Part shown: in pieces, positions 9,437-36,551 of the stretch | Position numbering within the stretch: the first letter of the stretch is position 1 | Layout: each line of letters begins with the position of its first letter | Origin: an uncultured Bacteroidales bacterium | GTDB taxonomy: Bacteria; Bacteroidota; Bacteroidia; Bacteroidales; ML635J-15 | Assembly (NCBI GenBank): GCA_937982115.1 | Contig: CALJNE010000036.1 | Coordinates: forward strand, 1 to 64,000 | Reading direction: 5' to 3' | Length of the DNA stretch: 64,000 nt | Position numbers and translations under genes: made by a program | The notes under the pieces: model-generated | Told to the model about the DNA's origin: nothing | Database searches by the model: none | Seen by the model: the letters and a program-made list of their open reading frames with translations, nothing else

Positions 9437-10085
9437 ATGAGAAAAATTGTCATGATTCATATTTTAGTTTTGATGACATTTGTTTTTTGGGGGACAAACA
9501 AAGTCAATAGATTTTAAGGAAATTAAACGCACTGCAGATAGTAATTGTTATGAGAAGTTATTTGTCCGATTCATCGCTAACGATACTCCATTATCTATAT
9601 AATATTCTATTATGGACAAGTTTATAGAAAAAACTATAAACCATACGCAAGACACGATTCTATTCGAGTGTTTAGACGTTTATGTGAAAAATAATAAAAA
9701 TTAAATAGATTTTCATAAAGTGCTTAGTTATACCAATCAGATATTAACTGATTTCTCTTTTTATATAGAACACATTCATATTACAGGAATTGCTCATGAT
9801 GAATTGGGCATTAAAGATTCAGCAGCAATATGGTTGTATAAATACGACAAGCTTATCAGGACAATTCTCGCTTCAGGAGACGGGAAAACTCCAAAGACAG
9901 CGTTTATTGTTACAAAAATTTCTGATGAATATTGGATTTTAAATGCTTTTGGACTGAAATTCACAGAACAGTCTCTTATAAATAAGAAAAAGAAATACTA
10001 TGACGTAATCCATCTTGCAGAAAATAAATACGGTATCAGTAAGTTATATTTTGATATAAACTTCTTTTTTGGGAAATGGCGTTAG
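9437..10085 (+). pseudogene. Decayed DUF4919-like secreted protein
   Basis: A signal-peptide-like start (ATG 9437, MRKIVMIHILVLMTF) runs into a five-G tract at 9489-9493. Removing one G restores a frame continuing as QTKSIDFKEIKRTADSNCYE. That frame is then interrupted by TAA at 9600 and TAA at 9702 and is open from there to 10085. The last part carries ILASGDGKTPKTAFIV, then SDEYWILNAFGLK, QSLI and LYFDI, the C-terminal signature I associate with DUF4919 proteins of Bacteroidota. So one frameshift and two in-frame stops separate pieces of one gene. The function of intact members is unknown. A GTG at 9720 could still start a 121-residue product, but this looks like a relic. Confidence 0.65.
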
Positions 10086-10275
10086 AAAAACTCCAGCCAA
10101 CACACAATATTGGACATTTCTGATGATAAATAGCAGGGAAAATCTGAATGGATTTATGTAAAACTTAAAGGGGAAGAATATAAAACAAACAACGACTTTA
10201 TCTTTAATTCCAATAGCAATACTTTACAACCCACGACTTATTTAAAATTAACATATTGTTCAACTTGTTTGTGAA
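10086..10275 (+). pseudogene. Unidentified coding remnant
   Basis: Frame 10095-10275 reads as protein-like sequence broken by a TAG at 10131. After the stop it runs QGKSEWIYVKLKGEEY and ends at TGA 10273-10275. There is no start codon or plausible promoter. It may be the 3' end of a second lost gene or of the same one. The family is not recognised. The rest of this gap (10276-10461) is AT-rich and holds only the -7 element below. Confidence 0.35.
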
Positions 10276-10438
10276 ATAAATGCTGGCCACAATTAATCAT
10301 TATAATATCTTTGTTTATTACTAGTAACCGGTTTTAAAGCTTTACAGTTCCTGATTCAAAGTACATTCTATTTTGCAATATGTTGTCAATTTTAACGTTT
10401 TATTGGTAAAACATAAGGTACATTACAACAAAATTAAC

Positions 10439-10446
10439 TAACTTTG
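10439..10446 (+). promoter_or_regulatory. -7 promoter element of the DUF4837 gene
   Basis: TAACTTTG matches the Bacteroidota -7 consensus TAnnTTTG exactly and ends 15 bases before the ATG at 10462. No good -33 element is seen at the expected distance. Confidence 0.45.
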
Positions 10447-10461
10447 TAATAAAAAATTTTT

Positions 10462-11469
10462 ATGAATACATACTTAATAAAACGAAGCATTTTATTGATT
10501 GTAATTTTTTCCGGGACATTTTTATTTTTCTCATGTAATAATCCAAAAGTAAAACCGACTCCAACAGCTCATGGCCTTGCGGGAGATATTGTTGTGGTAA
10601 TGCAAAACGAAAACTGGAACAGTGAATTTGGCGATAGCCTCCGGGCTATTTTCGAGCAGGATTGTCCGGCTGTGCCTATGGAAGAACCATTGTTTGATTT
10701 GCATCAGATCCCAAAGGAAAAGTTTAAAGACCAAAATTTGTATCACCGTAATATCATTTTTCTCGAAATAAATCCAAACATCGAAAAACCAAAAATAAGT
10801 ATCATTAAAGATAAGTATGCAAAAAAACAGATATTTGTAAATATTGCTGTTAGAAATCTTCCCGACTATGTTGAATTGATAGAAAAAAACAAAGATGCTC
10901 TTATAAAAGTATTTCTGGAAGCCGACAGAGATCGCTGGGTAGAAACTCTACAAACGCACTATAACAAAACCATAAGTAAACAACTTAGAGACAAATACAA
11001 CATTTCGGTAAAAATTCCCAAAAATTATCAATTATATGAATATCGCGACACTTTTGCATGGATGGGACATGAGACAAGAGATTATACAATGAATATTATT
11101 TTTTACTCCTGGCCTTTGACGGATTCTTCATCATATTCGCCGGAATATCTTATTTCCATGCGAAATTTAGTTTTAAAGGACAATGTTCCGGGACAGCTGC
11201 CGGGAACCTACATGACTACCGAAACAAAATATGATTACCCGATAGTTGAAGTTATTAATCATAATTTTCTTGAAACAGCAATTATGCGAGGATTATGGAG
11301 AGTACACGGCGACTTTATGGGTGGGGCATTTGTCGCTTATTATAAAAAAGATATTCCGAGAAAAAGAATGGTATGCATGGAAGGATTTGTATTTTATCCT
11401 AATAATGAAGTTCGCGATAAAATTCGATTATTGGAAAACTCATTATACACTTTCGACTTGCTTAAATAA
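10462..11469 (+). CDS. DUF4837 family lipoprotein
   Basis: 335 residues. The N terminus is a lipoprotein signal peptide with the lipobox FFSC (Cys25). The rest matches the DUF4837 layout known from Bacteroidota, beginning with GLAGDIVVVMQNENW and ending in a conserved block with GDFMGGAFVAYYKKD. The family is widespread in the phylum but has no assigned function. The protein is expected in the periplasm, anchored to a membrane by its lipid. It is followed after 56 bases by ssb, which has its own promoter. Confidence 0.85.
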   Translation: MNTYLIKRSILLIVIFSGTFLFFSCNNPKVKPTPTAHGLAGDIVVVMQNENWNSEFGDSLRAIFEQDCPAVPMEEPLFDLHQIPKEKFKDQNLYHRNIIFLEINPNIEKPKISIIKDKYAKKQIFVNIAVRNLPDYVELIEKNKDALIKVFLEADRDRWVETLQTHYNKTISKQLRDKYNISVKIPKNYQLYEYRDTFAWMGHETRDYTMNIIFYSWPLTDSSSYSPEYLISMRNLVLKDNVPGQLPGTYMTTETKYDYPIVEVINHNFLETAIMRGLWRVHGDFMGGAFVAYYKKDIPRKRMVCMEGFVFYPNNEVRDKIRLLENSLYTFDLLK

Positions 11470-20608: not shown

Positions 20609-23600
20609 ATGTTAAAAAAATGGGAAAATATTGCGGTTGGAATAATTCTATCTATAAACATCAATGTTATAGGTCAAACATTGAGCAATAACTTTTTGTT
20701 CCCAACTGAAATAGTACTAAGCGAAACTAACATTTTTGAGATTTCCGCAAATTTTGAAAATCCTTATTATGTTCAATCTGCTCCGTCTTGTTCGAGAAAT
20801 TACGCAGGTATTGAATTTTATTTTTCCTTTACAATAGATGAATCTCATTTTCCTTTAAAAATTAATTCTGAATTTAAAAAAACTGTTGACCACGGTATTT
20901 CTTTGTATCTTGATTCTGAATATTCTCAAGAAATTGAATGTGGACAGGCAATTAGCAGCTCTATTTCTTTGAGTATAATTGACACTTTATTTTTAAACAA
21001 AAAAGTTTACGGTCGTATCTGGATATACGATGCAGGTGATATTTCAAAAATAAAGTTGATTTTTGATAAAGCGGCTAATTCTTATGCAAAAATACCGGTT
21101 ATTGGAGTTCAATCAATGACTCCGGAGCAATTAGTAAATAATGTTTTGATTTCCGGTTGTGTACAGGCTTTCAATGTACAATACACAGGTCATCCAGAAG
21201 CAATGGGATTTTTTACTAACGGAGTTCCTGGTCTTGATTTTAACTCTGGGATAATACTTTCAACAGGAAAAGCTGTTAACGCTGCTGGTCCTAACAATTC
21301 TCCGGCAAGGTCAACAAATTTTCAATATCCCGGTGATGCTTTATTGAGTTCAATCATTAACCGACAAACTTTTGATGCAGCGATTCTGAAATTTGACTTT
21401 ATTCCGGCAGGTAACGTAATTTCTTTTCAATATGTTTTTGGCAGTGAAGAGTATGAAGAATATGTAGGCGGACATTTCAACGATATTTTTGCTTTTCACA
21501 TTTCGGGAGGTCCGGAAAATTATAACAATAAAAATTTAGCCATTATTCCCGGCACAAATAATACTACGGTAAGTATTAATAATGTAAATCACATCACTAA
21601 TACTCAATTTTACAGAAACAATGACAACGGACAGCATCTGCAATTTGACGGACATACTGTTACATTAACTGCATCAACCAGCGTTACTCCTTGCGAAACT
21701 TATCATATCAGATTAAGTATTGCCGATGCTGCTGATGCAATTTTTGACAGCGGGGTATTTATTAAAGCCGGCAGTTTTGTTAGTAGAACAATGCCACTTG
21801 TTAAAAACGATAATGGCTGGTTAATGGTTGACAAAACTTACGAAGGCTGCGAAAATAAATTGATTTTTGCAAGAAGCGATAATTACTATATTAATCAACA
21901 GATGACTTTTGATATTGAAATATCCGGTTCTGCAAGTCCTTCAGAAGATTACACTCCTTTACCCACCCAAATATCAATACCGGCAGGACAGGAATATATT
22001 GAAATTCCTTACACCGTATTTCCAGATGGAATTTTTGAAGGAGAAGAAGAAATAAAAATTAAAATTTTTACCGGTTGCCAATGCGGAATTGAATTTTACG
22101 AATATACTATTAGAATTTTTGATGAAATAAATCTTTCAGGAACAATTACCGATAATTCTCCTAAATGTGCAGGCGAAACTATAAATGCAAGTTTACATAT
22201 AAACAATTTGCCTGAATATTATCATATAGTTTGGAATACCGGACATCAAAACACAACAAATATTTCGTTTTCGGCTGAAGAGTCGTTTATGTTGAGAGCA
22301 GAAATTCATTATCCTTGCGGAGTTGAAGTTGTTGAAAAGTGGATTGACATTTTACCTCGACCTCAAGCTAACTTTTTTACTAACAGTCCGGTTTGCGAAG
22401 GACAGGATGTTGTGATGACGGCAAACAATGGAATTTCATACCTATGGAAAGGACCAAATGGTTTTAATTCCACAGAACAATCTGTTATTCTTACAAATGC
22501 ACAAAATCTCCAATCAGGAACTTACGGACTTACCGTTACCGGCGAAAACGGATGTAAATTTGTAAAATTATTTGATATACAAATTAATCAATGGCCAAAT
22601 CCCCAACTTAACGATAATTACATTTTCTGTGAAAGAGATAACATTAATATCAGCACAGGAAACTACTACAGTTACTTGTGGTCAGGACCAAATAACTGGA
22701 CATCCCAAAATAATGCTTTGATAATAAATCAATCTATACCACAATTATCCGGAATTTATTATCTTACGGTTAGCGACGAAATCGGATGTACAGGAAGCAC
22801 TCAAACCAACATCAGCATAAACCCCTCACCTACTGCTACCATAATTGCCCCACAAAACCTATGTTATCACGACAGTTTCATTCTTTTGGGAAATACTTCA
22901 GATATTAATTATTGGATTCTGCCGGATGGAAATACAATAAATTCAAATTCATTTTCGGTTAACCAGGCAGAACTGACACATTCCGGAACATACTCTTATT
23001 ATCTGGAAAACAGTTTTGGTTGCAGAGATTCTGCTTCCGCAATAATTACAGTAATATATCCCGATGCTACGATATTAAGCACAGGGCCTTTTTGTGCCGA
23101 TGGTAATGTTATTAGTCTTCAATCTCAATATTCGGGAGGAAACTGGTCAGGTGAAATTATTTCAGATGCAAATTCCGGTAGTGTAAATACACAATCGTTG
23201 AATACAGGATTTTATCAAGTAGTGTATCATATCGGCTTTCCGGGATGCGAAGATTCTGATACTGCATTAATTTATTTCGAACAAATGCCTCAAATTCAGT
23301 TTGATGATGTTCCTCAACAAATCTGCAACTCAGAGCACCAAATACAACTCAAAGCTTATCCTGCAGGCGGATTTTGGGAAGGTCCAGGTATAATAAATTC
23401 TGCCGAAGGAATCTTTAACCCACAAATTTGCACATCCGGAAGTGCATACTTTACCTATACCTTTAATACAGAAACCTGCAATGTAAGAGACAGTGTTAAC
23501 ATTCAAATTTTAAATTCTCCGCAGGTTCATATTACAAATGCTCCCGAACATATTTGTGTTAACGATAATCAAATCTATCTCACGGCGACAATTTCCGGTG

Positions 23601-26600
23601 GTATCTGGTCGGGTGCCGGAATTATGAATGCCGTTACCGGACGCTTTAAACCTTCTGTTGCAGATGTCGGAACTCATACAATTTATTATACCTTTCAAAA
23701 TGAATACTGCACAGCAAAAGATTCTATTTTAATTACGGTTGATGAATTTATTCCTGCAAATGCAGGTAATGACATAAGTATATGCAACAATATTGATTTT
23801 TACAATCTTCCTGTTGATTCAAATTCATTCTGGACAGGCCTGGGAATTTTGGATTCTTCAGCAGGAATTTTCAGTCCGTCATTATCAGGAATAGGAAATT
23901 TTCCATTAGTTTTAACCATTACAAACGAATCTTGTACCTCAAAAGATACCATAAACATTAACGTTATAGATACTGATATTGTACAGGTAATTTATCCTCA
24001 ACAAGTATGTATGTATGATGGCTCAATTTTTCCACAAACGAACAGCAATGGTCTTACATTTTCGGGAAATGGAATAACAAACGCAACTACCGGAGAATTT
24101 AATCCGCTTATTGCCGGAGAAGGAATACATCAAATTACATTTAATTATTCTAATGGAGAATGTTATTTTTCTGATACTCTGTTAATAAATGTTTTACCAG
24201 CTCTTAATCCGGAATTTTCCTATCAATCTGCTTTTTGCAGTGAGAACTCACCCGTGGTTTTAACTCCGCTTACTTCGGGAGGAATATGGTTAGGCGACGG
24301 AATTATTGACACTGAAAATGGTGTTTTTGACCCGTCTCAGGCTAACACAATAAACATTGTTACTTACACTGTTTCAAACGAAACCTGCACATCAGTATCT
24401 ACTGCTACAATCTATGTTTACGACAATTCCTTAAACTTTGAACTTTTAAGCCCTTCTCAATTTTGTATGTCCGACGAAGAATTTGAACTCCAGGTTTTGC
24501 CTCCGGGAGGAAATTTTAGCGGTCCCGGAATCATAAACAATAAATTAATTCCTTCTTTAGCTGGTAGCGGCGAACATACAATTACATACTCTTATGGTAG
24601 CGGAACATGTTTCAATTCAATTGATTTTACATTGACTGTGGGTGATGAAATCTATATTGATATAGAATTACCACAAACAATCTGCAAAAACTCCGACCCA
24701 ATTTTACTCCCACTTTCTATCGAAAATATTTATTGGTCGGGAGATGCTGTAATAAACAATATTTTTTATCCTTCTATTGCAAGCCCCGGAAATAATACAA
24801 TTTATGCAAATATTGCCATTAACGCTTGCCAGAAAACTTTTACTTATGATATTTTTATTAAAGACCTTATCCAACCGGTTATTACAAATGTATCTTATGC
24901 TTATTGTCAAAATTACGGCTTTATTTATCCGGACTTTTATCCCGAAAATGGAGTTGTGAGCGGCATAAATCTTGACTCACTAAACAGAATAAATACTTAC
25001 GACTTAAGTCCGGGAATTTATCAGATTATTTATACCGTTGAAAATGAAGGTTGTTACTCAAGCAATTCTCACATTTTTGAAATTTTACCAATACCAGCAA
25101 CTGAAATTATTTTACCTTCAGATAATTATTGCATTAACTCAGGGGAAGTGGTAATTCATTCTATTCCGGCAGGAGGTTGGTTCGAAAATATAGAAATCTC
25201 CGGGAACTCATTTTTCCCTTCAACTTTCGGTATCGGTGAACACATAATATTGTATGGGTACACCGCTCCCAACGGTTGTACCTCATATACACACAAACAA
25301 ATCACAATTTATGAGCAACCGGAGATTTCTTTTGAAATTTTAAATCCTGTTTCTTGCTTCGGTGCTAATGATGCCTCCGTTAAAGCAATCACAAATATAC
25401 CGTCAGAGATTTTCTGGATTGGGCAGGACAGTGTAATTTCTCCGATACTTTCAAATGTTTCTGAAGGTTGGCATAAAGTTATGGCAATTTCAGAGTTTGG
25501 ATGCACGACTGTTGATTCAGTTTATTTAGCCTCACCTGCCCCGCTTAATGTACAGATTTCAGGAACCCAACAACTTCAATGTCCCGGAAATGAGAATGCC
25601 ATACTTACCGCAAACTGCTTTGGCGGCACTGCCCCATACAGTTATCTATGGAATACGGGACAAACAAGTCCTACAATATCTGAACTTTCTGCAGGAGAAT
25701 ATTCACTTACCATTACCGATAACAAGCTTTGTTCAGAAATTGTCTCATTCACCATTTTTCCGCCAGACACAATTGAAGTGGAAATTCTCTCTAAAAATCC
25801 CGGATGTTTCGGCTATTCTGACGGAGAAATAGAAATAATTACAAATACTCAAAACTCTTCGATTGTCTGGAATGATAATAACTCAACTTTGTTTTTACGA
25901 GAGAATTTAGTTGCCGGAAATTACGCTTTTGAAATCACTTACAACAATATTTGTAAATTTAACGGCGAAGTAAGTTTAGTCCAACCCGAAGAAATGAAAA
26001 TTCTTGCTACCGTTACAGATGTAAATTGCGAAAATAATTTTGGTAGCATTTTAATAACTGTAACAGGTGGTACTGAACCCTATGAATTTTTGTGGAACAA
26101 CGGTGAAAGTTTGAATTTTTTAGAAAATATACCCGCCGGTGTTTATGAATTAACCGTTACAGACTCAAATAATTGTTTTTTTGATACAGTTATTACAATT
26201 ATTGCAAACGGTAATCTTACGGTAAACATTCAAGAAGTTTCGCCCATAAAATGTTATAATGAAGCTGATGGAAGTTTAATTGCTATTTCGGAAAACACTG
26301 ATGTCGCATATTTGTGGAGTACAGGCGAAGAATCTCAACAAATTTCAGGTTTGCAAGCAGGAAGCTATTATTTAACAATTACTGACGAAAAAGGCTGTAC
26401 AGGAACAGCTGAATACACATTACAAAATCCCAATCCTATAATTAGAGAAATTAGTTTTATTCCTGTTATGTGTTTTGGAGAAAATACCGGAGAAATCAGA
26501 ATTTCATTAAATTTACCTGAAAGCGAATTATTCTGTGTTTGGAACGATGGTTTCTTTGGTTTGAACAGAGAAAATCTATATTCAGGAACATATTATTTTA

Positions 26601-27397
26601 CCATTACGGATGCAAACGGATGTTCCGCTTCAGACAGTGTTTTTATAGACGAGCCGGTCTCTCCGCTCAACATTGATATTTCGTTCAGCAATCCAAAATG
26701 CTATAATTCAAACGACGGAGAAATTATTGCTTTTGCTTCGGGAGGCGTTCCACCTTATTATTTTGAATGGAGATTTAAAGAATATTCATATTACGATTCA
26801 AAAATTAAAAATTTGCCTGCTGGAACTTATTTTTTAATCGTTTCTGATTCAAATGCTTGCAAAACAGAAACAATTATCATACTTACAGAACCCGAACAGA
26901 TAAAAACAAATGCTATAAGTTTTCCGGTTAGTTGTAATAACAATCCTGACGGTAAAATAATAATAAAAACTACAGGCGGCTCATCTCCATATATTTACCT
27001 GGTAAACAACAGAATTTACAATGATTCTATAATTGAAAAACTGCCTCCGGGATTGTTTGCAATTAAGACCATTGATAGTAACAATTGCCATTCGGAAGAA
27101 ATATCTGTCTCAATACCGGATTCCGAACTTGAATGCTTGATAATTCCAAATGCTTTTACTCCAAACGGCGATGGAATCAACGACAACTGGGAAATTCAAT
27201 ACTTAGAACTTTATTCGGATGTAACTATTCAAGTCTATAATCGTTGGGGCCAAATTGTTTACGAAACAAATACTCCTTCTCAAAAATGGGATGGAACATC
27301 AAATTCACATCCTTTACCCTCCGGTACTTACCTTTATATAATCTTTTTAAACAATGGAAAACATAAAATTCAAGGTTCTGTTAGTATCTTAAGATAA
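20609..27397 (+). CDS. Giant choice-of-anchor-L adhesin with SprB repeats and type B T9SS sorting domain
   Basis: 2262 residues. Order of parts: signal peptide ending NVIGQ (about 22); N-terminal beta domain; choice-of-anchor L domain (about 172-390, with GLDFNSGIILSTG and VFGSEEYEEYVGG); Calx-beta-like stretch (about 430-500, with IFEGEEEIKIKI); Ig-like/PKD-like modules (about 510-815); ten GGxW-type modules (about 819-1567); eight SprB repeats (about 1568-2170); type B sorting domain at the end (TPNGDGINDNW, VYNRWGQIVYE). By family knowledge it is exported by the T9SS and exposed on the surface, probably for attachment or gliding. It has the same ordered tail as the adhesin at 1-3543 but is strongly diverged in sequence. 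A promoter for the kinase operon begins four bases after its stop. Confidence 0.93.
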   Translation: MLKKWENIAVGIILSININVIGQTLSNNFLFPTEIVLSETNIFEISANFENPYYVQSAPSCSRNYAGIEFYFSFTIDESHFPLKINSEFKKTVDHGISLYLDSEYSQEIECGQAISSSISLSIIDTLFLNKKVYGRIWIYDAGDISKIKLIFDKAANSYAKIPVIGVQSMTPEQLVNNVLISGCVQAFNVQYTGHPEAMGFFTNGVPGLDFNSGIILSTGKAVNAAGPNNSPARSTNFQYPGDALLSSIINRQTFDAAILKFDFIPAGNVISFQYVFGSEEYEEYVGGHFNDIFAFHISGGPENYNNKNLAIIPGTNNTTVSINNVNHITNTQFYRNNDNGQHLQFDGHTVTLTASTSVTPCETYHIRLSIADAADAIFDSGVFIKAGSFVSRTMPLVKNDNGWLMVDKTYEGCENKLIFARSDNYYINQQMTFDIEISGSASPSEDYTPLPTQISIPAGQEYIEIPYTVFPDGIFEGEEEIKIKIFTGCQCGIEFYEYTIRIFDEINLSGTITDNSPKCAGETINASLHINNLPEYYHIVWNTGHQNTTNISFSAEESFMLRAEIHYPCGVEVVEKWIDILPRPQANFFTNSPVCEGQDVVMTANNGISYLWKGPNGFNSTEQSVILTNAQNLQSGTYGLTVTGENGCKFVKLFDIQINQWPNPQLNDNYIFCERDNINISTGNYYSYLWSGPNNWTSQNNALIINQSIPQLSGIYYLTVSDEIGCTGSTQTNISINPSPTATIIAPQNLCYHDSFILLGNTSDINYWILPDGNTINSNSFSVNQAELTHSGTYSYYLENSFGCRDSASAIITVIYPDATILSTGPFCADGNVISLQSQYSGGNWSGEIISDANSGSVNTQSLNTGFYQVVYHIGFPGCEDSDTALIYFEQMPQIQFDDVPQQICNSEHQIQLKAYPAGGFWEGPGIINSAEGIFNPQICTSGSAYFTYTFNTETCNVRDSVNIQILNSPQVHITNAPEHICVNDNQIYLTATISGGIWSGAGIMNAVTGRFKPSVADVGTHTIYYTFQNEYCTAKDSILITVDEFIPANAGNDISICNNIDFYNLPVDSNSFWTGLGILDSSAGIFSPSLSGIGNFPLVLTITNESCTSKDTININVIDTDIVQVIYPQQVCMYDGSIFPQTNSNGLTFSGNGITNATTGEFNPLIAGEGIHQITFNYSNGECYFSDTLLINVLPALNPEFSYQSAFCSENSPVVLTPLTSGGIWLGDGIIDTENGVFDPSQANTINIVTYTVSNETCTSVSTATIYVYDNSLNFELLSPSQFCMSDEEFELQVLPPGGNFSGPGIINNKLIPSLAGSGEHTITYSYGSGTCFNSIDFTLTVGDEIYIDIELPQTICKNSDPILLPLSIENIYWSGDAVINNIFYPSIASPGNNTIYANIAINACQKTFTYDIFIKDLIQPVITNVSYAYCQNYGFIYPDFYPENGVVSGINLDSLNRINTYDLSPGIYQIIYTVENEGCYSSNSHIFEILPIPATEIILPSDNYCINSGEVVIHSIPAGGWFENIEISGNSFFPSTFGIGEHIILYGYTAPNGCTSYTHKQITIYEQPEISFEILNPVSCFGANDASVKAITNIPSEIFWIGQDSVISPILSNVSEGWHKVMAISEFGCTTVDSVYLASPAPLNVQISGTQQLQCPGNENAILTANCFGGTAPYSYLWNTGQTSPTISELSAGEYSLTITDNKLCSEIVSFTIFPPDTIEVEILSKNPGCFGYSDGEIEIITNTQNSSIVWNDNNSTLFLRENLVAGNYAFEITYNNICKFNGEVSLVQPEEMKILATVTDVNCENNFGSILITVTGGTEPYEFLWNNGESLNFLENIPAGVYELTVTDSNNCFFDTVITIIANGNLTVNIQEVSPIKCYNEADGSLIAISENTDVAYLWSTGEESQQISGLQAGSYYLTITDEKGCTGTAEYTLQNPNPIIREISFIPVMCFGENTGEIRISLNLPESELFCVWNDGFFGLNRENLYSGTYYFTITDANGCSASDSVFIDEPVSPLNIDISFSNPKCYNSNDGEIIAFASGGVPPYYFEWRFKEYSYYDSKIKNLPAGTYFLIVSDSNACKTETIIILTEPEQIKTNAISFPVSCNNNPDGKIIIKTTGGSSPYIYLVNNRIYNDSIIEKLPPGLFAIKTIDSNNCHSEEISVSIPDSELECLIIPNAFTPNGDGINDNWEIQYLELYSDVTIQVYNRWGQIVYETNTPSQKWDGTSNSHPLPSGTYLYIIFLNNGKHKIQGSVSILR
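23063..25310 (+). repeat. Ten tandem GGxW-type Ig-like modules
   Basis: Ten in-frame copies of about 75 residues, the same family as those at 88-1425. Copies two, three and six keep the GGxW-x-G-x-G core. Copies eight to ten are degenerate (for example YWSGDAV, GVVSGIN). Cysteines at equivalent positions are kept in nearly all copies. Confidence 0.78.
25311..27122 (+). repeat. Eight tandem SprB-type repeats
   Basis: Eight in-frame copies of about 75 residues with the Cys-x3..5-DG start, a YLW/EW strand and an LTITDxxxC end. Copies two, four, seven and eight retain GG-x-x-PY. The first, third and sixth are degenerate there. Confidence 0.8.
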
Positions 27398-27431: not shown

Positions 27432-27461
27432 AAGATAAATTGAACCTTGAAATCTTTTTCT

Positions 27462-30400
27462 ATGACAAGCAGAAAAAAAATAATTTTTATTTATGCACTC
27501 ATATTAGCATCAATAATTTCTGCATTTATTATTTTTATTCATACAAGACCCGTCGTAAAAGTTAACTATAATGAGCGTTCGGTTGAGTTTTACAACAACC
27601 TGTCAGCACTAAACAAAATTATTGAATCAAATAATATTTTAAGGAATAATATTTTTTTACTGATTAACGATAACGAAAATTTTTATTCTACAGACAGCAT
27701 TCTTAAAAAAATTCATAATTACTCCCTTTCAATGGATTCTGCATTAAATCAATTGCAAATCATAGAAAGAACATATTTACAAAACATAAAAACAAACCTC
27801 GATTTGCATTATAAAAATATTTTAAACTTGTATTATAATGACAAAAAACAAGCGGCTTATAATCAATTTATTGAAGAATTTAATCCTCTCAGCTTAAAAT
27901 TTAATGAAGTATGTTTTGAATACTCGAACAGAGAAATAAAATCACATTCAAGATTTTTAAAATCCATTGAAAAAGGGAAACAAGATTTAATGCTTTATTT
28001 TATTGTAATACTTATTTTATTGACTTCAGGCTTTGTAATTTTTCTAAGAACATTTACTCAAACAGAAAAGAATTACTTTAAAAAATTATACGACATTGAA
28101 AATTTGCAAAAAACAAATTTGTTTTTTAAAAAACTTTTAGATAAGGAAAAGAAATTAATAAATGTTTTCTCTTCGGCTGGAATAGGAATGGTGATTTTAG
28201 ACTTTTCCGAATCTACTGCTTTTGCAGATACTAAAGCTGCACAAATATTAGGGTTAAATACTGTCGGAAACGAAATTTCAAGTGCAAATAATTTTGTTTT
28301 CGACATAAATGAAATTAATAATGTTTTTCCTCATCAAGATATTTTGAAAAATTACAATATCACAAAAAAATCCGATTCTGTAATAAGTTTTGAAATTTCT
28401 CATCCTTTAAAAGGAAAAGTGATTATAAAGTTTTTCTCATCAATCATCTATGATGAAAATTCCGGCGAAGTAAAAGAAATATACTCGATTGTCAGGGATA
28501 TTAGCGAAGAGAAAAAAAACAAAGAATTAAAAGAAAAATATTATCATTTTATTAAAAGTATAAGTTCTAAAAACAAACTCGGATATTGGGAGTGGGATAC
28601 TTCGAAACCAAAACCCGATGTTTCTGATGAATGGCTCAAGATTTTTGGCATTGATAGAGATGTGTATGAAAATTCAACTGTTGACCATCTGGTATCGTAC
28701 TGGGACAAAGAATCTTTGCAACTTGTTGTGAAAAGAATGCAAATGATGAAAAAAGCCCAAATTTCCGAATTTTTTGATGAATATATTTTTAATCATCCCG
28801 TTAAAGGTAAGATGTATATCGAAGTTTTTGGAAAAATTGTTGATTATACTCCTCAGGGAAAAGCAATTTATCAAGGTTATCATAAAGATACTTCAGAGTT
28901 TAAGAAACTTAAATCCGATTTGGAATTAATATCAAAAGAAAGAAAATTTTTAACCGAAAACTTCCCGCTGCCTTTACTTATTGCAGAAGAAAAAGATTTA
29001 AACAACAAACAAAATTATTACTTTGTTGTCATTAATTCAGAATTTGAATTATTAACAAACATTAATAGATCTTCCATCATAAACAAACCCATAAAGCAAA
29101 TTACCGAAATTGCATTTCAGGAAGATATCCTGAATGAAATAGAAACATTACAAAAAAACAAAAAATTACAATTTGATGTTTTTGACGAAAAATTAAAAAA
29201 ACATCTCGAAGTGTTTGCTTTTATGCTTAATGATAAGCGGTTTGCTGTTATTTTTACCGATATTAGTGAAAACAAAAAACTACTCGAATACTATAAAAAT
29301 CATGAATCATTAAGCAAATATTTAACGAATTATTCCGAAAAAGCGATATTATTCATAAAGCCTGAAACTTTTAAAATAATTTACTCAAACTCAAAAGCCA
29401 AAGAATTTTTTAATGCAACCTGTGATGAAGATTTTAAAAATCTCGATTTTATAAAACTTCAGACAAATAATTTACAAAAGGAAAAATTAATTTCATTTTT
29501 TATTAAACAAGCAAGCACAAATTTTGAAAAAATAAAGAATATACCACTAGAATGGGAATTTAGAAGATTTGACGGCTCCAAATTTTACGGAAAAATAAAA
29601 TTAAATAAAATTACCTACAACAACTCCGAAGTTATTATTGCCGAAATTAGCGATGTTACTGAATTTAGCGAGACTGTAAAAAAATACGAAAGAATTCAAC
29701 ATTGGCTTCAAAAAATAATTAATGCAATTCCATCATTACTGGTAGTAAAGGACAATTTTGGAAATATTTTAATGGCAAACGATATTTATCTCCAAACTTT
29801 CGGGCAAACTGCTGAAACAATTGTTGGTAAAAACAATAAAGAAATTTATCATCCGAGCGATGCTAACATAATACAACAAATTGATAACGAAGTTTCACAA
29901 TATGGAATCTCAAGAACTTATGAACAGAAACTTTTTATTTCAACCGGAGAACAAAGATATTTTTTGGTAAACAAAGTGCCGCTTAGAGATGAAAACAATA
30001 AAGTTTACGCCATAGTTTCCCATGCAACTGATATTACCCAGCTAAAAAACCTTGAAGAAAAACTCAGAACACTAAAAGATGAGGCAGTAAGTGCCAATCG
30101 AGCAAAATCTGTTTTTCTCGCAAACATGAGTCACGAGATTCGCACACCGTTAAATTCAATAATCGGTTTTTCAGAGATTCTGGCAAATATTGCTTCAGAC
30201 CTTGTTGTAAAAAATCATGCTCACTCTATACTCACAGCAGGCAAAGCTCTTTTAAATCTGATAAACGATGTTCTTGATCTGGCAAAAATCGAATCCGGAA
30301 AAATAAATCTCAATCCAGACTACCACGACCTAAATAAAATTCTCGATGAAATAAACAGCATCTTTAAATTACGAGCCGAAGAAAAAGGATTGAACTTTAA

Positions 30401-31505
30401 AGTAGTTTCAGATATTAAACAAGGTCTGGTTGTGAATATTGACGGACATAAAATTCGACAGGTTCTGCTTAATCTAGTTGGCAATGCAATAAAATTTACA
30501 GAAAAAGGATTTGTTGAAGTTAGCTTGAAACACAACTTAAAAGAAAATTCTCTCGCCGATATAGAAATAAAAGTGAGCGACAGCGGACCGGGAATTTCCG
30601 AATCCGATTTGAATAAAATATTTTTACCTTTCGAACAAGCCGGAAACATTGATAACCAAAAATTCGGAGGAACAGGCCTTGGACTGAGTATTTGCGACAA
30701 AATAATCAGATTAATGAACGGAAACATTTTAGTGGAAAGCAAATTTAATTACGGGACAACTTTTACTGTCAGTATCCCAAACATAGAATATGAATTAACA
30801 AATCAAATTTTTACCAAAAAATCTAAAAAAGTTCTTGAAGTGATTTTTGATAAAGCAAAAATTCTAATTACCGACGATGTAAAGGACAGCCGCGATATTT
30901 TAACCGGACATCTGAAAACCTACAATTTTGGAATATACGAAGCAGTTTCTGGCAATCACGCTTTACAATTAGTGAAACAAGTGAAACCCGATATTCTAAT
31001 CCTTGATATCAGACTTCCGGATATTTCGGGAATTGATATTGCTAAAGCCGTCAAAGAAGATATTTCGCCCAAAACAAAAATAATTGCATACACTGTTGCT
31101 ATTGACAAGATTCTTGTCGAAGAAAAAATAAACGAATACTTCGACGGATACATTACTAAACCCGTGATAAAGTCAGCACTCATTAACGAACTAAAAAAAT
31201 TCATCCCATACAAGGAAATATCTTCTTCAAAACCTAAAGAAAACAAATTATTCGCCTTTAATGATACAACAAAAAATATTATTAAAGATTTTCTTAGTAA
31301 AAACAACATTTCAGAACCTTCGGACTTTACAAAAAAATTACTGACTTTATTGATTTCAGAAATTAAAAACTCTTTCACAAGTTATAAAGACGAAGACTCC
31401 GAAAAACTCATTGACAGCCTCGAAAAAGCATTGATGGAATTCAATGTGGAAGTTATTGATTACTTTAAAAATTTATTCATAAATATTAAAAATGAAGAAA
31501 TCTAA
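27462..31505 (+). CDS. Hybrid sensor histidine kinase with multiple PAS domains and a receiver
   Basis: 1347 residues from the ATG at 27462. A TTG at 27447 is in frame but too near the promoter to be favoured. Two membrane segments (about 6-27 and 178-196) flank a helical periplasmic sensor, so the protein sits in the inner membrane. Four or five PAS/PAC-like domains follow (about 225-870). The kinase core is complete: FLANMSHEIRTPLNSI (about 883, phospho-His), NLVGNAIKFT (N box, about 1004), DSGPGISE (G1, about 1041) and GGTGLGLSI (G2, about 1070). A receiver (about 1131-1250) has the Asp in LILDIRLPD and the Lys in ITKP. The last ~95 residues are helical and unassigned. The next gene starts inside or just after its end. 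Confidence 0.92.
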   Translation: MTSRKKIIFIYALILASIISAFIIFIHTRPVVKVNYNERSVEFYNNLSALNKIIESNNILRNNIFLLINDNENFYSTDSILKKIHNYSLSMDSALNQLQIIERTYLQNIKTNLDLHYKNILNLYYNDKKQAAYNQFIEEFNPLSLKFNEVCFEYSNREIKSHSRFLKSIEKGKQDLMLYFIVILILLTSGFVIFLRTFTQTEKNYFKKLYDIENLQKTNLFFKKLLDKEKKLINVFSSAGIGMVILDFSESTAFADTKAAQILGLNTVGNEISSANNFVFDINEINNVFPHQDILKNYNITKKSDSVISFEISHPLKGKVIIKFFSSIIYDENSGEVKEIYSIVRDISEEKKNKELKEKYYHFIKSISSKNKLGYWEWDTSKPKPDVSDEWLKIFGIDRDVYENSTVDHLVSYWDKESLQLVVKRMQMMKKAQISEFFDEYIFNHPVKGKMYIEVFGKIVDYTPQGKAIYQGYHKDTSEFKKLKSDLELISKERKFLTENFPLPLLIAEEKDLNNKQNYYFVVINSEFELLTNINRSSIINKPIKQITEIAFQEDILNEIETLQKNKKLQFDVFDEKLKKHLEVFAFMLNDKRFAVIFTDISENKKLLEYYKNHESLSKYLTNYSEKAILFIKPETFKIIYSNSKAKEFFNATCDEDFKNLDFIKLQTNNLQKEKLISFFIKQASTNFEKIKNIPLEWEFRRFDGSKFYGKIKLNKITYNNSEVIIAEISDVTEFSETVKKYERIQHWLQKIINAIPSLLVVKDNFGNILMANDIYLQTFGQTAETIVGKNNKEIYHPSDANIIQQIDNEVSQYGISRTYEQKLFISTGEQRYFLVNKVPLRDENNKVYAIVSHATDITQLKNLEEKLRTLKDEAVSANRAKSVFLANMSHEIRTPLNSIIGFSEILANIASDLVVKNHAHSILTAGKALLNLINDVLDLAKIESGKINLNPDYHDLNKILDEINSIFKLRAEEKGLNFKVVSDIKQGLVVNIDGHKIRQVLLNLVGNAIKFTEKGFVEVSLKHNLKENSLADIEIKVSDSGPGISESDLNKIFLPFEQAGNIDNQKFGGTGLGLSICDKIIRLMNGNILVESKFNYGTTFTVSIPNIEYELTNQIFTKKSKKVLEVIFDKAKILITDDVKDSRDILTGHLKTYNFGIYEAVSGNHALQLVKQVKPDILILDIRLPDISGIDIAKAVKEDISPKTKIIAYTVAIDKILVEEKINEYFDGYITKPVIKSALINELKKFIPYKEISSSKPKENKLFAFNDTTKNIIKDFLSKNNISEPSDFTKKLLTLLISEIKNSFTSYKDEDSEKLIDSLEKALMEFNVEVIDYFKNLFINIKNEEI

Positions 31506-31527: not shown

Positions 31528-34500
31528 ATGAAAACCAAAATAATTATATTCATTCTTTTGTGTTTTTCATTCTCAACTTTTGCACAAATAAATCCTGAAT
31601 TAAAAAAAGTATTATCCAGAGAAGAAATTCAATATCTAAATAATAATAGAAAGCTTAAAGTAATTTTTTTGCAAAATGATTTTAGCCCCTATTGGTCATT
31701 TTTAAATAATTACGCGTTTGGCACAAATAAAGATTACCTCGATATTTTTCTGGAATATACCGGATTGAAATGCGATACAATAATTGTTTCGTGCCAGGAT
31801 GCTCTTAAACTTATGGAAAACGGGCAGGCCGACCTAATTCCTTTTATTACTAATTGCTATCAAGGAAACAAAATAACATTCTCACACAGAATTTTTAAAA
31901 CAAATTTGGTGATTATTTCAAAAAATAAAATAATAAATGAACTTACTGGCTTATCGGGCAATAATGTTGCGGTAGGGAAAAATATGTATGTAAAAAAATT
32001 TCTGGAACAAGAAATTGCCGGAATTAATCTCATTGAATACAACACCGAAAATGCTGCTCTTGATGCATTGCAGAATAATGAAGTAGATTTTTTTGCCGGA
32101 GAATATTTTACGTCATTAAATAAACTCAAAAACACAAACCATCAATTCCAAATAAACAAATATTTAGAGCCAATAAGTATTCATTTTGGAGTAAATAATA
32201 CCAATAAAATCCTTTTGAACATAGTAAACAAAGTTTTTACAATAATTGAGTTTAAGTACAAACAGAACATTTTGAAAAAATATAATCTAAACAACACAAT
32301 AACAGATTTTATACCATCTCCCGAAGAAATTGAGTATATAAATTCCTTACCCGTTTTAAAAGTTGGATACAAAACTTTTAGAATACCTGTTGAATATTCT
32401 GAGAATGGAAAGCTTAAAGGTTTTCTACCCGATATTAACAATTTGTTTTTTAGTCAACTTGGTCTAAAAACAGAATCAATATTATACGATGATTTGAATG
32501 AAATGTTTGAAGACCTGCGAACAGGAAAAATTGACATTATTGCAAGCTTGAACTATAATCCCGATAGAGCAAAAAAATTCCTTTTTTCAGATTCTTATTT
32601 AAAAAATTCTTTTGTTGTAGTTTCAAAACATAAACAAATTAACGATTTATCACAAGCAGAAGACCAAATTGCCGGCGTTTATTCTTCGTATTGGATTACA
32701 GATGAGCTATCAAAAAGATCTCCAAAAATAAAATTTGTCTTATACTCTGATATTGAAAAATTTTTTAATGACTTGAGTTCAAAAAAAATTAACTATGGAA
32801 TTATTAACAGGTTTTCATATTTATATTTTAAGAATAAATTAGACAAAAAAAACATCAACTTTTGTTATGAATTGCCATTTTGGGAAACAGTATGTTTTGC
32901 ACTTAACGAAAAACATTTTCAGCTGCTGCCAATTTTAAATCGAGCTATTCGCAGTACCGAAACCCAAACTATCAGCAATACAATATTACTCTGGCATATA
33001 AATAATTCTCAAAATACAAAAAAATCATTTACTAAAACTATTATTATCATAACAGTAATTTTGATATTTATTCACTCTCTATTGATATATTTCCTTAAAA
33101 AGCAATACAATAAAAAAATAAAAGTTCTAAAAACTTTAAATGAAATAAATCACAAAAATTCGGAGTATAAAAGAATTTACAATAGTTTAATGGACGTTTA
33201 TTTTAAACTAGATTTAAACGGAACCATACTTGAAATCAGTCCTTCGCTTACGGAAATCGGCGGTTACCTTCCGGATGAAGTTATTGGCAAAACCGACGCC
33301 TTTTTTTACTCCGAAATTTCTGAACGAGAATACATATATAAGAAGTTATACGAAACAGGAAAACTTTTTAACGAAAGAATACACTTGAAACATAAATCAG
33401 GAAAAATAGTTCCGGTTTCGGTAAATACTAAAATAGTTTTTGATGAAAATAATAATCCCTTATTTATTGAGGGATTTTTGAGAAATGTTGAAACTACTGT
33501 TCTACTTGAAAAAGAACTCGAAGAAAATATTAAAAAATTAGAATTTATTATTAACTCGGAAAAAATCGGTATTACAATTATTTCACCGTTGAATCGAACT
33601 TTTTCTGCAAATAATATATTCTACGACTTTTTTGAATTAACTCCTGATGAAAATTCCTCACAATCTTTTAATAAATTCTTTGATTTTGTGTCGGAATCTG
33701 ATCAAGTAATTATCAAAAAAGGATTTGATGCCATAATTTCTAAAAGAATAGAAGAATTTGAACACGAATTAAAAATAACAACAGCAAACAGAAATGAAAA
33801 ATACATATTCTCAAGATTTGTAAAATTCTCCGAAAAAGATAATGATATTTTAATTATTGGAATACACAAAGACGAAAGAGATACTGTTGCTTTAAGAAAT
33901 ACTATCAAAATTAACGAAATAGAATGCTCTTTGATGCAAAAGAATTTGAATCATTGCTTGCTTTACCTCGATAAAAATTTAAACATAATTCAAACAAAAA
34001 ATCTCTTAAACGAAATAGATACCGATATTACAGGAAAAAATCTTTGTGAGGTTTTTAATTTTGAAATAATTAAAGATAATGAAGGTAAAAATCTTAACAT
34101 TTCTGTTTTAAATAACATAATAAACTATCGAGATATAATTGCAAAAGCTATTATTATAAACTCAAAGCAAGAACATATAGAAAAATTTCTAACCCTATCA
34201 TTTACTAACTTGGATTTCGACAAAAACCTTATTTTATGTTTGATAATTGATAAAACAAGCCTTATTAAATCAAAAAAAGAATCAAAAGATTTAGCATTAC
34301 AAATACAAAAACTGAAAGAACTAAACGATAATTTTGTTGAAAGCATTGCCTATGAGCTTCGAGAACCTATTTCGGCAATAATAGGTTTTTCACAAATGCT
34401 CGAAGGGAACATCTACGATTTGAGTAAAAAAGAAAATTATCTGGAATTAATCAAAAAGAATTCTGATGAAATTGTGTCCATAATAGAATCGCTTAATACA

Positions 34501-35412
34501 TTATCTGATATTTCAGCCGGCAGATTAGAAATTTTTAAAAGTTCTTTCAACATAGTTTTGCTTATAGATGAAACCTTAAAAAGTTTATCTCAACAAATTG
34601 AATCAAAGAATCTTGGAATTGAAAAAATTATAAAAATTCCCAAAACGGCAGAAATAGTTTTTTCCGACTTGCAAAAAATAAGCAAGACTTTAAATTTTGT
34701 AACAAAACATATAATCGAAAACAACAATTCAGGTACGTTAATAATACAGGTATCATTGAAAGGAAAACTTCTTGAAATAAAAATGCAACCCAATTCTACA
34801 GAAATTGCCGAGAGTAAATACGAACTTATAGAAACATTTTTGCAAGGAAAGAAAAACACCAGATACTGGCTACAACTAAAAACTCTTTCAATTTTTATGG
34901 AGAATCTGGGCGGTTATTTAAAATTCTATTCAGCAAACAGCGGAGATTCTGCTATTATAGGTTTTGAAATATCAAATTATTCCGATAATATTAGTACTGA
35001 TAAAAAGATTTCCGATAAAGCAATTTCGAAAGAAAATCTAAAAGCAAAAATTTTAATTGTGGAAGACGAAGAGTTTAATTACATTTACCTATCGGAAATT
35101 TTTAAAATGTATGGATATGATTATATTATTGCAAACAACGGAATTCAAGCCATAGAAATAATAAAAGAAAAAGGAAATGAAATTGACCTTATCTTAATGG
35201 ATATACGAATACCTGATATGGATGGAATTAAAACAAGCATTGAAATAAGAAAATTCAATCAAAAAATTCCTATCATCATCCAAACAGCATTTAATTATGA
35301 TATGGATTATGAATTGAAAATTCAAAAATATTGTAATGATTTTATTCAAAAGCCAATAATTGCCGAGATTTTGATACATAAAATTGAAAACCTGTTAAAA
35401 AATAAAATATGA
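31528..35412 (+). CDS. BvgS-like double periplasmic-binding-domain sensor with a degenerate kinase core and intact receiver
   Basis: 1294 residues from the ATG at 31528, chosen because it gives a short signal peptide (MKTKIIIFILLCFSFSTFAQ). An in-frame ATG at 31492 would overlap the preceding gene by 14 bases. Two SBP_bac_3-type solute-binding domains (about 28-250 and 265-485) precede a membrane segment (about 500-520) and a PAS domain (about 550-680), then two less clear PAS-like regions. The HisKA-like helix reads IAYELREPISAIIGF: the phospho-accepting His is Tyr (codon TAT 34351-34353). The ATPase region lacks recognisable N, G1 and G2 boxes. The final receiver (about 1172-1290) is intact, with EDEE, LILMDIRIPDMDG and QKPI. 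It is probably a pseudokinase that signals through partners. Confidence 0.88.
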   Translation: MKTKIIIFILLCFSFSTFAQINPELKKVLSREEIQYLNNNRKLKVIFLQNDFSPYWSFLNNYAFGTNKDYLDIFLEYTGLKCDTIIVSCQDALKLMENGQADLIPFITNCYQGNKITFSHRIFKTNLVIISKNKIINELTGLSGNNVAVGKNMYVKKFLEQEIAGINLIEYNTENAALDALQNNEVDFFAGEYFTSLNKLKNTNHQFQINKYLEPISIHFGVNNTNKILLNIVNKVFTIIEFKYKQNILKKYNLNNTITDFIPSPEEIEYINSLPVLKVGYKTFRIPVEYSENGKLKGFLPDINNLFFSQLGLKTESILYDDLNEMFEDLRTGKIDIIASLNYNPDRAKKFLFSDSYLKNSFVVVSKHKQINDLSQAEDQIAGVYSSYWITDELSKRSPKIKFVLYSDIEKFFNDLSSKKINYGIINRFSYLYFKNKLDKKNINFCYELPFWETVCFALNEKHFQLLPILNRAIRSTETQTISNTILLWHINNSQNTKKSFTKTIIIITVILIFIHSLLIYFLKKQYNKKIKVLKTLNEINHKNSEYKRIYNSLMDVYFKLDLNGTILEISPSLTEIGGYLPDEVIGKTDAFFYSEISEREYIYKKLYETGKLFNERIHLKHKSGKIVPVSVNTKIVFDENNNPLFIEGFLRNVETTVLLEKELEENIKKLEFIINSEKIGITIISPLNRTFSANNIFYDFFELTPDENSSQSFNKFFDFVSESDQVIIKKGFDAIISKRIEEFEHELKITTANRNEKYIFSRFVKFSEKDNDILIIGIHKDERDTVALRNTIKINEIECSLMQKNLNHCLLYLDKNLNIIQTKNLLNEIDTDITGKNLCEVFNFEIIKDNEGKNLNISVLNNIINYRDIIAKAIIINSKQEHIEKFLTLSFTNLDFDKNLILCLIIDKTSLIKSKKESKDLALQIQKLKELNDNFVESIAYELREPISAIIGFSQMLEGNIYDLSKKENYLELIKKNSDEIVSIIESLNTLSDISAGRLEIFKSSFNIVLLIDETLKSLSQQIESKNLGIEKIIKIPKTAEIVFSDLQKISKTLNFVTKHIIENNNSGTLIIQVSLKGKLLEIKMQPNSTEIAESKYELIETFLQGKKNTRYWLQLKTLSIFMENLGGYLKFYSANSGDSAIIGFEISNYSDNISTDKKISDKAISKENLKAKILIVEDEEFNYIYLSEIFKMYGYDYIIANNGIQAIEIIKEKGNEIDLILMDIRIPDMDGIKTSIEIRKFNQKIPIIIQTAFNYDMDYELKIQKYCNDFIQKPIIAEILIHKIENLLKNKI

Positions 35413-36551
35413 ACAGTAGAATTTTAATCGTTGACGACAGACCGAAAAATATTCAGATACTTGCTAATCATCTCACAAATGATGGTTACGATGTAGAATA
35501 TGCCACAAGTGGTAAAGAAGCAATAAAAATTCTCGAAAAAGAAGATTTCGACTTAATCCTTCTGGATGTGATGATGCCGGGAATAGATGGTTTTGAAACC
35601 TGCAAAAGAATTAAAAAACTCGAGAATAAAAGTAACATTCCCATTATTTTTGTTACGGCAAAAACCGATATTGACAGTATAACGTTAGGATTCGAATACG
35701 GCGGCGTTGATTATATCTCCAAACCTTTCAAAGCCGATGAACTTCTTGTAAGAGTAAAAACGCATATCGAACTTAAAAAAGCAAAAGATATGCTTAATTA
35801 TCATAAATCCTATCTCGAAAAAAGAGAAGATTTCTATAACAAGGAAATAAACAAACTCAAAAAAGCCTTATTAGAAAAAAATAAGCAATTTGAATCAATA
35901 TGCAACCATTACAGCGAAATCTTAAATCTTTATAACCAGGCAATATCAAAAATACAAATACAAACATCCATTCCACTGAGCTTATTAAAAGCTGAACAAA
36001 TAAACGAAAAGCAAACTGCATTATTATTGGAATTGGAAAAAGCAATAAAAAATAATGCTAAAGATATAGATTTACTTAATCAATATCACGATATTCTCAG
36101 TTTAAGGGAAAAAGCCCTGAAACTAAAAGATGTTTTTGTTGCTAAAGTTATTGCTGATGCAATTAACCTAAACTCAAATAAAATTAATCTGCTCCAACTG
36201 AACATAAATACTAATATTAATAATGAAACTACAATCAAAGCAGACACAGAATATATTAAGGCAGCTTTTGCGTCATTGCTTGGTTTCATTATTGAAAATT
36301 CCGATAAGGCAGAAACAATAAATATTGATGTTACAAAATCTGACGACGAAATTGCCATAAGCATTATTAAATCACACAAACAATTCGAAAAAGAGTTAAT
36401 ACTGTATCCTCATAAAATAATTATCGAAAACAAAAAACAGAATTTCAATTTATTTCTATCGAGTTTTATTTTCGAAATTCACAACTTTAAATTTAAAATT
36501 GGTAACAATAACGAAGGAGGAGCCTATATTCGAGTCAATATTTCAAAATAG
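35409..36551 (+). CDS. Receiver-domain protein with coiled coil and ATPase-like C terminus
   Basis: 380 residues, starting within the stop of the previous gene (ATGA overlap). The N-terminal receiver (about 1-120) is complete: VDDRPKN acidic pocket, LLLDVMMPGIDGF phospho-Asp near residue 53, VTAKT and SKPF. A long lysine/glutamate-rich coiled coil (about 125-240) follows. The C-terminal 140 residues resemble a histidine-kinase ATPase fold (ADTEYIKAAFASLLGFIIEN, INIDVTKSDDEIAISI) but without a recognisable N-box Asn or glycine-rich lid. There is no DNA-binding or cyclic-nucleotide domain, so the output must be through protein contact. It is the end of the three-gene operon. Confidence 0.85.
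   Translation: MNSRILIVDDRPKNIQILANHLTNDGYDVEYATSGKEAIKILEKEDFDLILLDVMMPGIDGFETCKRIKKLENKSNIPIIFVTAKTDIDSITLGFEYGGVDYISKPFKADELLVRVKTHIELKKAKDMLNYHKSYLEKREDFYNKEINKLKKALLEKNKQFESICNHYSEILNLYNQAISKIQIQTSIPLSLLKAEQINEKQTALLLELEKAIKNNAKDIDLLNQYHDILSLREKALKLKDVFVAKVIADAINLNSNKINLLQLNINTNINNETTIKADTEYIKAAFASLLGFIIENSDKAETINIDVTKSDDEIAISIIKSHKQFEKELILYPHKIIIENKKQNFNLFLSSFIFEIHNFKFKIGNNNEGGAYIRVNISK

Follow-up and report, generated by a model that had tools for sequence, protein, structure and literature searches.

A three-gene cassette of an uncultured Bacteroidales bacterium (ML635J-15) encodes an intact hybrid histidine kinase (gene 1) followed by two kinase-like proteins (genes 2 and 3) which, by their sequences, have neither a phosphoacceptor His nor ATP-binding boxes in this species, and in both of which the receiver domain is intact. 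The cassette lies within the first 64,000 nt (positions 1-64,000) of contig CALJNE010000036.1, assembly GCA_937982115.1, a stretch hereafter called the window. Judged from sequence, gene 2 is a real, conserved pseudokinase inside a conserved cassette. By analogy with characterized systems, a modest preference is given here to the reading that one live kinase, gene 1, feeds two kinase-shaped receiver proteins, genes 2 and 3. The source genome (G000) is 90.65% complete, and the same-genus copies compared with it are those of G014, G024, G003, G009 and G019.

Gene 2 is a single open frame of 1294 amino acids. An alternative ATG of this frame is found upstream at 31492; by eye, the signal-peptide-like stretch starts at 31528. 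Its parts are as follows.

31528-35412, + strand: gene 2, His-less hybrid kinase (translation, Pfam, alignment of copies)
31588-33090, + strand: tandem periplasmic flytrap (SBP_bac_3) region (Pfam, PDB sequence match)
33163-33489, + strand: first PAS domain (Pfam)
34327-34521, + strand: HisKA/DHp helix hairpin (PF00512, 40.8 bits; predicted helices)
34351-34353, + strand: Tyr942 at the phosphoacceptor column, codon TAT (translation, codon reading)
34525-35019, + strand: ATPase-like (CA) part in which the N, G1, F and G2 boxes are unrecognisable (Pfam, alignment; predicted fold)
35050-35385, + strand: intact receiver, Asp1225 codon at 35200-35202 (Pfam; invariant residues)

The HisKA helix of gene 2, ESIAYELREPISAIIGF, contains the motif SIAYELREPI, in which Tyr occupies the place of His; translation and codon reading bear out the TAT codon described in the initial annotation of this DNA. 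The helix hairpin is still recognised by Pfam as HisKA, above the cut-off of 26.9 bits. No HATPase_c match was returned for gene 2 at a Pfam maximum E of 10, a setting at which program filters remove most matches above about 0.1. In alignment to canonical cores, the N box position reads FVTKHIIENN (canonical NLVGNAIKFT), the G1 position KMQPNSTEIA (canonical KVSDSGPGIS) and the G2 position ----LQLKTL (canonical GGTGLGLSIC), and no N, G1, F or G2 box is recognisable in the window copy; the annotation had likewise seen no clear N, G1 or G2 box. The receiver, which it had described as keeping its Asp, acidic pair and Lys, has the acidic pair E1179 and D1180 together with D1225, T1253 and K1275, all invariant in the six copies including that of the window. 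With this complement of residues, gene 2 would be unable to autophosphorylate on its DHp helix, and ATP binding is probably absent in the window species.

The sensory half of gene 2 is of the BvgS/EvgS type, as first proposed. Pfam reports two SBP_bac_3 stretches, PAS, HisKA and Response_reg, so arranged that two tandem flytraps precede a transmembrane segment and PAS, and the best PDB sequence match of the flytrap region is BvgS (4q0c, E 1.6e-18), followed by EvgS (9ilw, 6.7e-14). Among the four copies with complete N-termini, length and alignment place this region in G000 and G024 and find it missing from G003 and G019. Because only two of the four complete copies bear flytraps, ligand sensing is not a conserved core function of gene 2, and the initial proposal that the protein works through binding a small molecule is correspondingly weakened.

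A search of 61 genomes with gene 2 at E 1e-40 gave hits in five. Four belong to the genus, namely the source genome itself, G014, G024 and G003; the fifth, an order-level genome, is matched over the kinase core alone. With a gene 3 profile run over 149 genomes, near-full-length gene 3 copies were found in 6 of 26 same-genus genomes, own included, and gene 2 adjoins gene 3 in all six (the regions of G014 and G009 are cut by contig ends). The six gene 2 copies form a single clade with support 100/100 in the tree. At the His column of the alignment they have Tyr (G000, G014, G003), Ser (G024), Asp (G009) or Asn (G019), and none has His. The N, G1 and G2 boxes are lost in five of the six, the exception being G003, where Tyr is accompanied by an N box (HLIENSIKYT), a G1 box (YVSDTGSGIE), a mostly kept G2 box (RGMGISLRIC) and an altered F box. 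Pfam recognises HisKA in five of the six cores and HATPase_c in one, and the DHp is much altered in G024, G009 and G019. None of the six copies combines His with full ATP boxes, and the pseudokinase assignment of the initial annotation is thereby supported. The simplest history would have the His lost in the common ancestor and the ATP site later, in most lines.

The neighbouring gene 3, whose condition the initial annotation did not mention, is likewise His-less and kinase-like. It encodes 380 amino acids and overlaps the stop of gene 2 by 4 bases.

35409-36551, + strand: gene 3, of the receiver-kinase (Rec-HK/LvrB) type: receiver and coil, then a DHp-like part without His and a degenerate CA-like part (Pfam, profile alignment)
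35421-35756, + strand: receiver of gene 3, Asp53 codon at 35565-35567 (Pfam, alignment)
35913-36548, + strand: kinase-like region of gene 3 (DHp-like and CA-like), His-less, and without ATP boxes in the window copy (alignments)

The gene 3 profile aligns over its full length with eight His-bearing order-level Rec-HKs (hhalign E 5.5e-83), giving the architecture Rec-coil-DHp-CA. In alignments of the six genus copies none has the phosphoacceptor His: the residue at that column is Q, E or D in an ungapped alignment, and N or I when the S-T-P/S-I-P motif, placed by eye, serves as anchor. Among these copies, G024 and G003 have full or almost full ATP boxes, G009 and G019 have lost G2, and in G000 and G014 the boxes are unrecognisable. 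The receiver and the linker behind it (LNYHK, then LEK; window 35409-35820) are nearly invariant in the genus, and the linker His was not seen among the order-level rows examined. A predicted structure of gene 3 was too poor (mean pLDDT 60.5, pTM 0.34) and was left unused.

Upstream of gene 2 lies the only member of the cassette with a full set of kinase motifs.

27447-31505, + strand: gene 1, intact hybrid histidine kinase (Pfam; motifs in genus copies)
30132-30134, + strand: codon of the gene 1 phosphoacceptor, the invariant His896

Gene 1 consists of an N-terminal membrane region (by eye), PAS domains, HisKA, HATPase_c, a receiver and a C-terminal extension of about 100 amino acids, and its SHEIRTP motif, N box and GxGLGL motif are present in the four genus copies seen. 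The extension (window about 31206-31505) has no Pfam match over the cut-off; it is kept in four genus copies and, by length, in order-level copies as well. On the other side of the cassette, leuS comes after gene 3 in all five other contigs. This conserved gene order fits the link between gene 2 and the neighbouring intact kinase that the initial annotation had drawn. Further upstream, a 2262-amino-acid adhesin-like gene precedes the cassette in both other contigs that reach that far (L044, L046); in the window this giant gene (20609-27397) ends, by eye, in a C-terminus of the gliding/type IX secretion system (T9SS) type.

The distribution of constraint differs between the intact kinase and its two neighbours. 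Between G000 and G014, the ratio of nonsynonymous to synonymous substitution (dN/dS, NG86) in gene 2 is about 0.18 in the PAS region, 0.14 in the DHp, 0.26 in the ATPase-like part and 0.18 in the receiver, the values for the DHp and PAS parts being rough since dS there is 0.9-1.3. The gene 3 receiver gives a value of about 0.01 and the rest of that gene 0.23-0.25, so that purifying selection is seen across all compared parts. Compared with the four non-sister copies, gene 2 is 45-56% identical in the receiver, 23-32% in the DHp and 13-25% in the ATPase-like part; gene 3 is 74-82% identical in the receiver, which is better conserved than anything else in the cassette, 24-28% in the DHp-like part and 22-29% in the CA-like part. 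In the active gene 1, compared with three copies, identity is instead highest in the DHp (56-67%), followed by the CA (35-47%) and receiver (33-47%). As far as these comparisons go, constraint in genes 2 and 3 is concentrated in the receivers, whereas gene 1 is led by its DHp.

Under the favoured reading, gene 1 would be the sole competent kinase of a three-gene module and would phosphorylate the receivers of genes 2 and 3, in the manner of LvrA acting on LvrB. The output would be a conformational or binding change of receiver-carrying scaffolds, with no onward phosphorylation from a His of their own, and in the flytrap-bearing copies (G000, G024) a periplasmic ligand may tune the availability of the gene 2 receiver or of a docking surface. 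Support comes from the distribution of the phosphoacceptor (absent from all six copies of gene 2 and of gene 3, present in the four copies of gene 1 seen), from the single clade formed by gene 2, from the strong constraint on the gene 2 and gene 3 receivers under purifying selection, from the leuS-flanked gene order, and from the His-bearing kinase that adjoins the Rec-HK at most of the order-level loci read (9 of 13). The parallel is provided by an operon of Leptospira encoding a hybrid kinase and a Rec-HK, in which LvrA is reported to phosphorylate LvrB (PMC5863495); LvrB is described as having the receiver-kinase architecture seen in gene 3 (PMC13269768). Genes 1 and 3 are of the same kinds of architecture and lie in one cluster, and their order-level relatives mostly bear His in both partners. 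Gene 3 differs in having no such His in any of its six genus copies. A further difference from LvrA-LvrB is the third, His-less hybrid placed between the two counterparts.

Several observations weigh against this reading. None of the three proteins has a DNA-binding domain in Pfam scans, and no output domain was seen in the cassette. With E allowed up to 1, Pfam still reports HATPase_c in five of the six gene 3 copies (the window copy being the one without), so nucleotide binding may persist there. Because the gene 2 DHp scores as HisKA in five of six copies, it may serve a docking role. An HPt encoded at another locus would allow the gene 2 receiver to relay phosphate, in which case it would not be terminal; the sole HPt candidate found in this 90.65% complete genome is below the Pfam cut-off.

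L153, own genome C6:55011-55190: HPt candidate, a 117-amino-acid frame with the HPt-like motif CHRIKSSVG (below Pfam cut-off)

Finally, by sequence profile, the solved cores nearest to gene 2 belong to active or partly active kinases, GacS (7.5e-23), RetS and SrrB, which come ahead of DivL (1.5e-15).

DivL is nevertheless the model for the alternative that survives best, although it is considered unlikely: the dead DHp of gene 2 would bind the phosphorylated receiver of gene 3, and the complex would alter gene 1 activity, with information flowing from receiver to pseudokinase. DivL, which has Tyr550 at its phosphoacceptor position, is reported to bind DivK~P and to act on CckA (PMC4211667). 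Gene 2 resembles DivL in its Tyr, in its PAS domains and, by prediction, in retaining the histidine-kinase fold, and no part of the cassette is better conserved than the would-be ligand, the gene 3 receiver. The predicted core of gene 2 (mean pLDDT 81.1, pTM 0.74, from six sequences) also has DivL as its top-ranked fold match, first in Foldseek (4q20_A, E 3.4e-14; HK853 5uht_A, 7.3e-14) and in VIA-align (4q20_B, Z 19.2, rmsd 4.2 over 223 residues; HK853 entries, 19.1-18.4). Since HK853 ties with DivL, and GacS, RetS and SrrB lead by sequence, this rank is not meaningful. The proposed docking surface, moreover, is poorly conserved (23-32%) and much altered in G024, G009 and G019. DivL is further reported to keep its H-region and its N, G1, F and G2 boxes (PMC4211667), whereas gene 2 has lost N, G1 and G2 in five copies and has most of the boxes in only one; it also carries an extra receiver and, in two copies, periplasmic flytraps.

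It is improbable that gene 2 instead pairs with gene 1 through the DHp, in a RetS-like or ChrS-like heterodimer that blocks or retunes gene 1. Of the solved structures, GacS and RetS match the gene 2 core best by sequence profile, and both recur among its fold matches. Native ChrS and HrrS are reported to form heterodimers in two-hybrid assays, and a laboratory-evolved ChrS variant with a broken ATPase domain to alter signalling (PMC9491836). The cores of genes 1 and 2, however, fall in separate, distant clades, and the gene 2 DHp diverges fast where that of gene 1 is 56-67% conserved.

Residual kinase activity, with Tyr or another residue phosphorylated, is very improbable, even where ATP boxes are found, as in the G003 copy (Tyr, with the N and G1 boxes and a mostly kept G2) and in an unlinked kinase of the window's own genome, P0010, in which Tyr goes together with a full set of N, G1, F and G2 boxes. 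DivL, the studied case of such a Tyr, is described as having no autokinase, kinase or phosphatase activity, none being restored by Y550H alone (PMC4211667), and the gene 2 column varies freely among Y, S, D and N. That gene 2 is a relaxed, decaying and functionless gene, or a sequencing error, is hardly credible and is rejected despite the fast divergence of its ATPase-like part (13-25% identity to non-sister copies): the Tyr is common to the 74% identical G014 copy, dN/dS is far under 1 in all compared parts (0.14-0.26 in gene 2), the frames read are open, and genes 2 and 3 adjoin in six of six genomes.

Two further systems invite comparison. Sensors of the BvgS/EvgS type have an active kinase core and a C-terminal HPt. 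Gene 2 shares with them tandem flytraps, a transmembrane segment, PAS, a kinase-like core and a receiver in a single protein, but its core is without His and ATP boxes, and it ends after the receiver with no Hpt match in Pfam. RcsD bears an HPt, and gene 2 a receiver. Like gene 2, RcsD is a pseudo-histidine-kinase protein beside a hybrid kinase, its pseudo-histidine-kinase domain being described as working alongside that partner (PMC3762810). Histidine pseudokinases are already known as a kind (DivL, the evolved ChrS variant, RcsD), and the bacterial ones studied are said to be few (PMC5361649). A live hybrid kinase accompanied by a His-less hybrid and a His-less Rec-HK did not turn up in literature searches of an open-licence library, and the cassette with its two dead kinase-like proteins is rated a new arrangement.

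Kinase-like proteins without the phosphoacceptor His are met repeatedly in this order. About 1% of sequenced histidine kinases reportedly have a substituted His (PMC5361649). Among the 14 PF00512 matches in the window's own genome, counted on both strands with L118, L123 and L124 inspected directly, 12 have His at that column and two Tyr, namely gene 2 and the P0010 hybrid kinase. Against this background, the lack of His in all six gene 2 copies is not a matter of chance.

L126:6349-8562, own genome contig C53, - strand: P0010, second Tyr-for-His hybrid kinase, 738 amino acids, SYEIRNP (sequence reading)

P0010 also has a receiver, and the seven same-genus members of its clade have Y, Y, H, E, D, T and Q at the His column (T and Q by eye). 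Since the column is this varied and the receiver Asp motif is found in all seven, it follows that the genus has repeatedly lost the His while keeping the receiver. His to Tyr requires a single CAY-to-TAY transition and so may be an easy loss. A Tyr-specific chemistry is not favoured, since gene 2 has any of Y, S, D and N at the column, and the P0010 family Y, E, D, T, Q and, once, H. Of 295 genomes, a crude exact-motif census gave the Tyr pattern in 14, with four of these 14 matches lying in a kinase-like helix, and the His pattern in 230; a backwards control yielded about ten hits.

At 9 of the 13 order-level loci read (L048-L060), a His-bearing kinase stands directly beside the Rec-HK. In a Rec-HK tree of 52 rows (57 before removal of five identical ones), 50 could be scored, L106 and L101 being dropped as unclear and L070_160, whose His is one column off (HisKA_3-like by eye), scored as His. 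Thirteen of these rows are without His; four changes are needed, at least three of them forced by supported branches, and the four may include gains. The His-less Rec-HKs L074_9992, L077 and L080 were below the coverage filter and stand outside the tree. At five of the loci listed (L048, L059, L075, L076, L094) a His-less Rec-HK lies beside a larger kinase, which bears His in every case, and no His-less hybrid resembling gene 2 was found beside these five. His-less receiver-kinases with N, R or D were noticed in L074, L075, L076, L077, L080 and L087 (around 9983-11155), and L070:2206-4622 encodes tandem receiver-kinases of which the first reads SHEIRTP and the second SEEIKVP, a live/dead pair of one type. 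Kinases of another single family of the order, in L139 and L140, read MSYEIRTP, with Tyr, and their N, G1 and G2 boxes look altered too.

The wider proposal, that two kinases of the cassette have turned into phosphate receivers, catalytically dead scaffolds driven by one live kinase and with their receivers as output, and that the same conversion has been repeated among the hybrid and receiver-kinases of this order, is advanced tentatively and with more doubt than confidence. If true, the passage from kinase to receiver would be a common evolutionary route in this order. As copies at graded stages of decay, from His lost with most ATP boxes still kept to boxes lost as well, stand beside a live kinase and have His-bearing relatives, the order of loss becomes readable. 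The compact three-protein system also makes the role of dead kinases a testable question.

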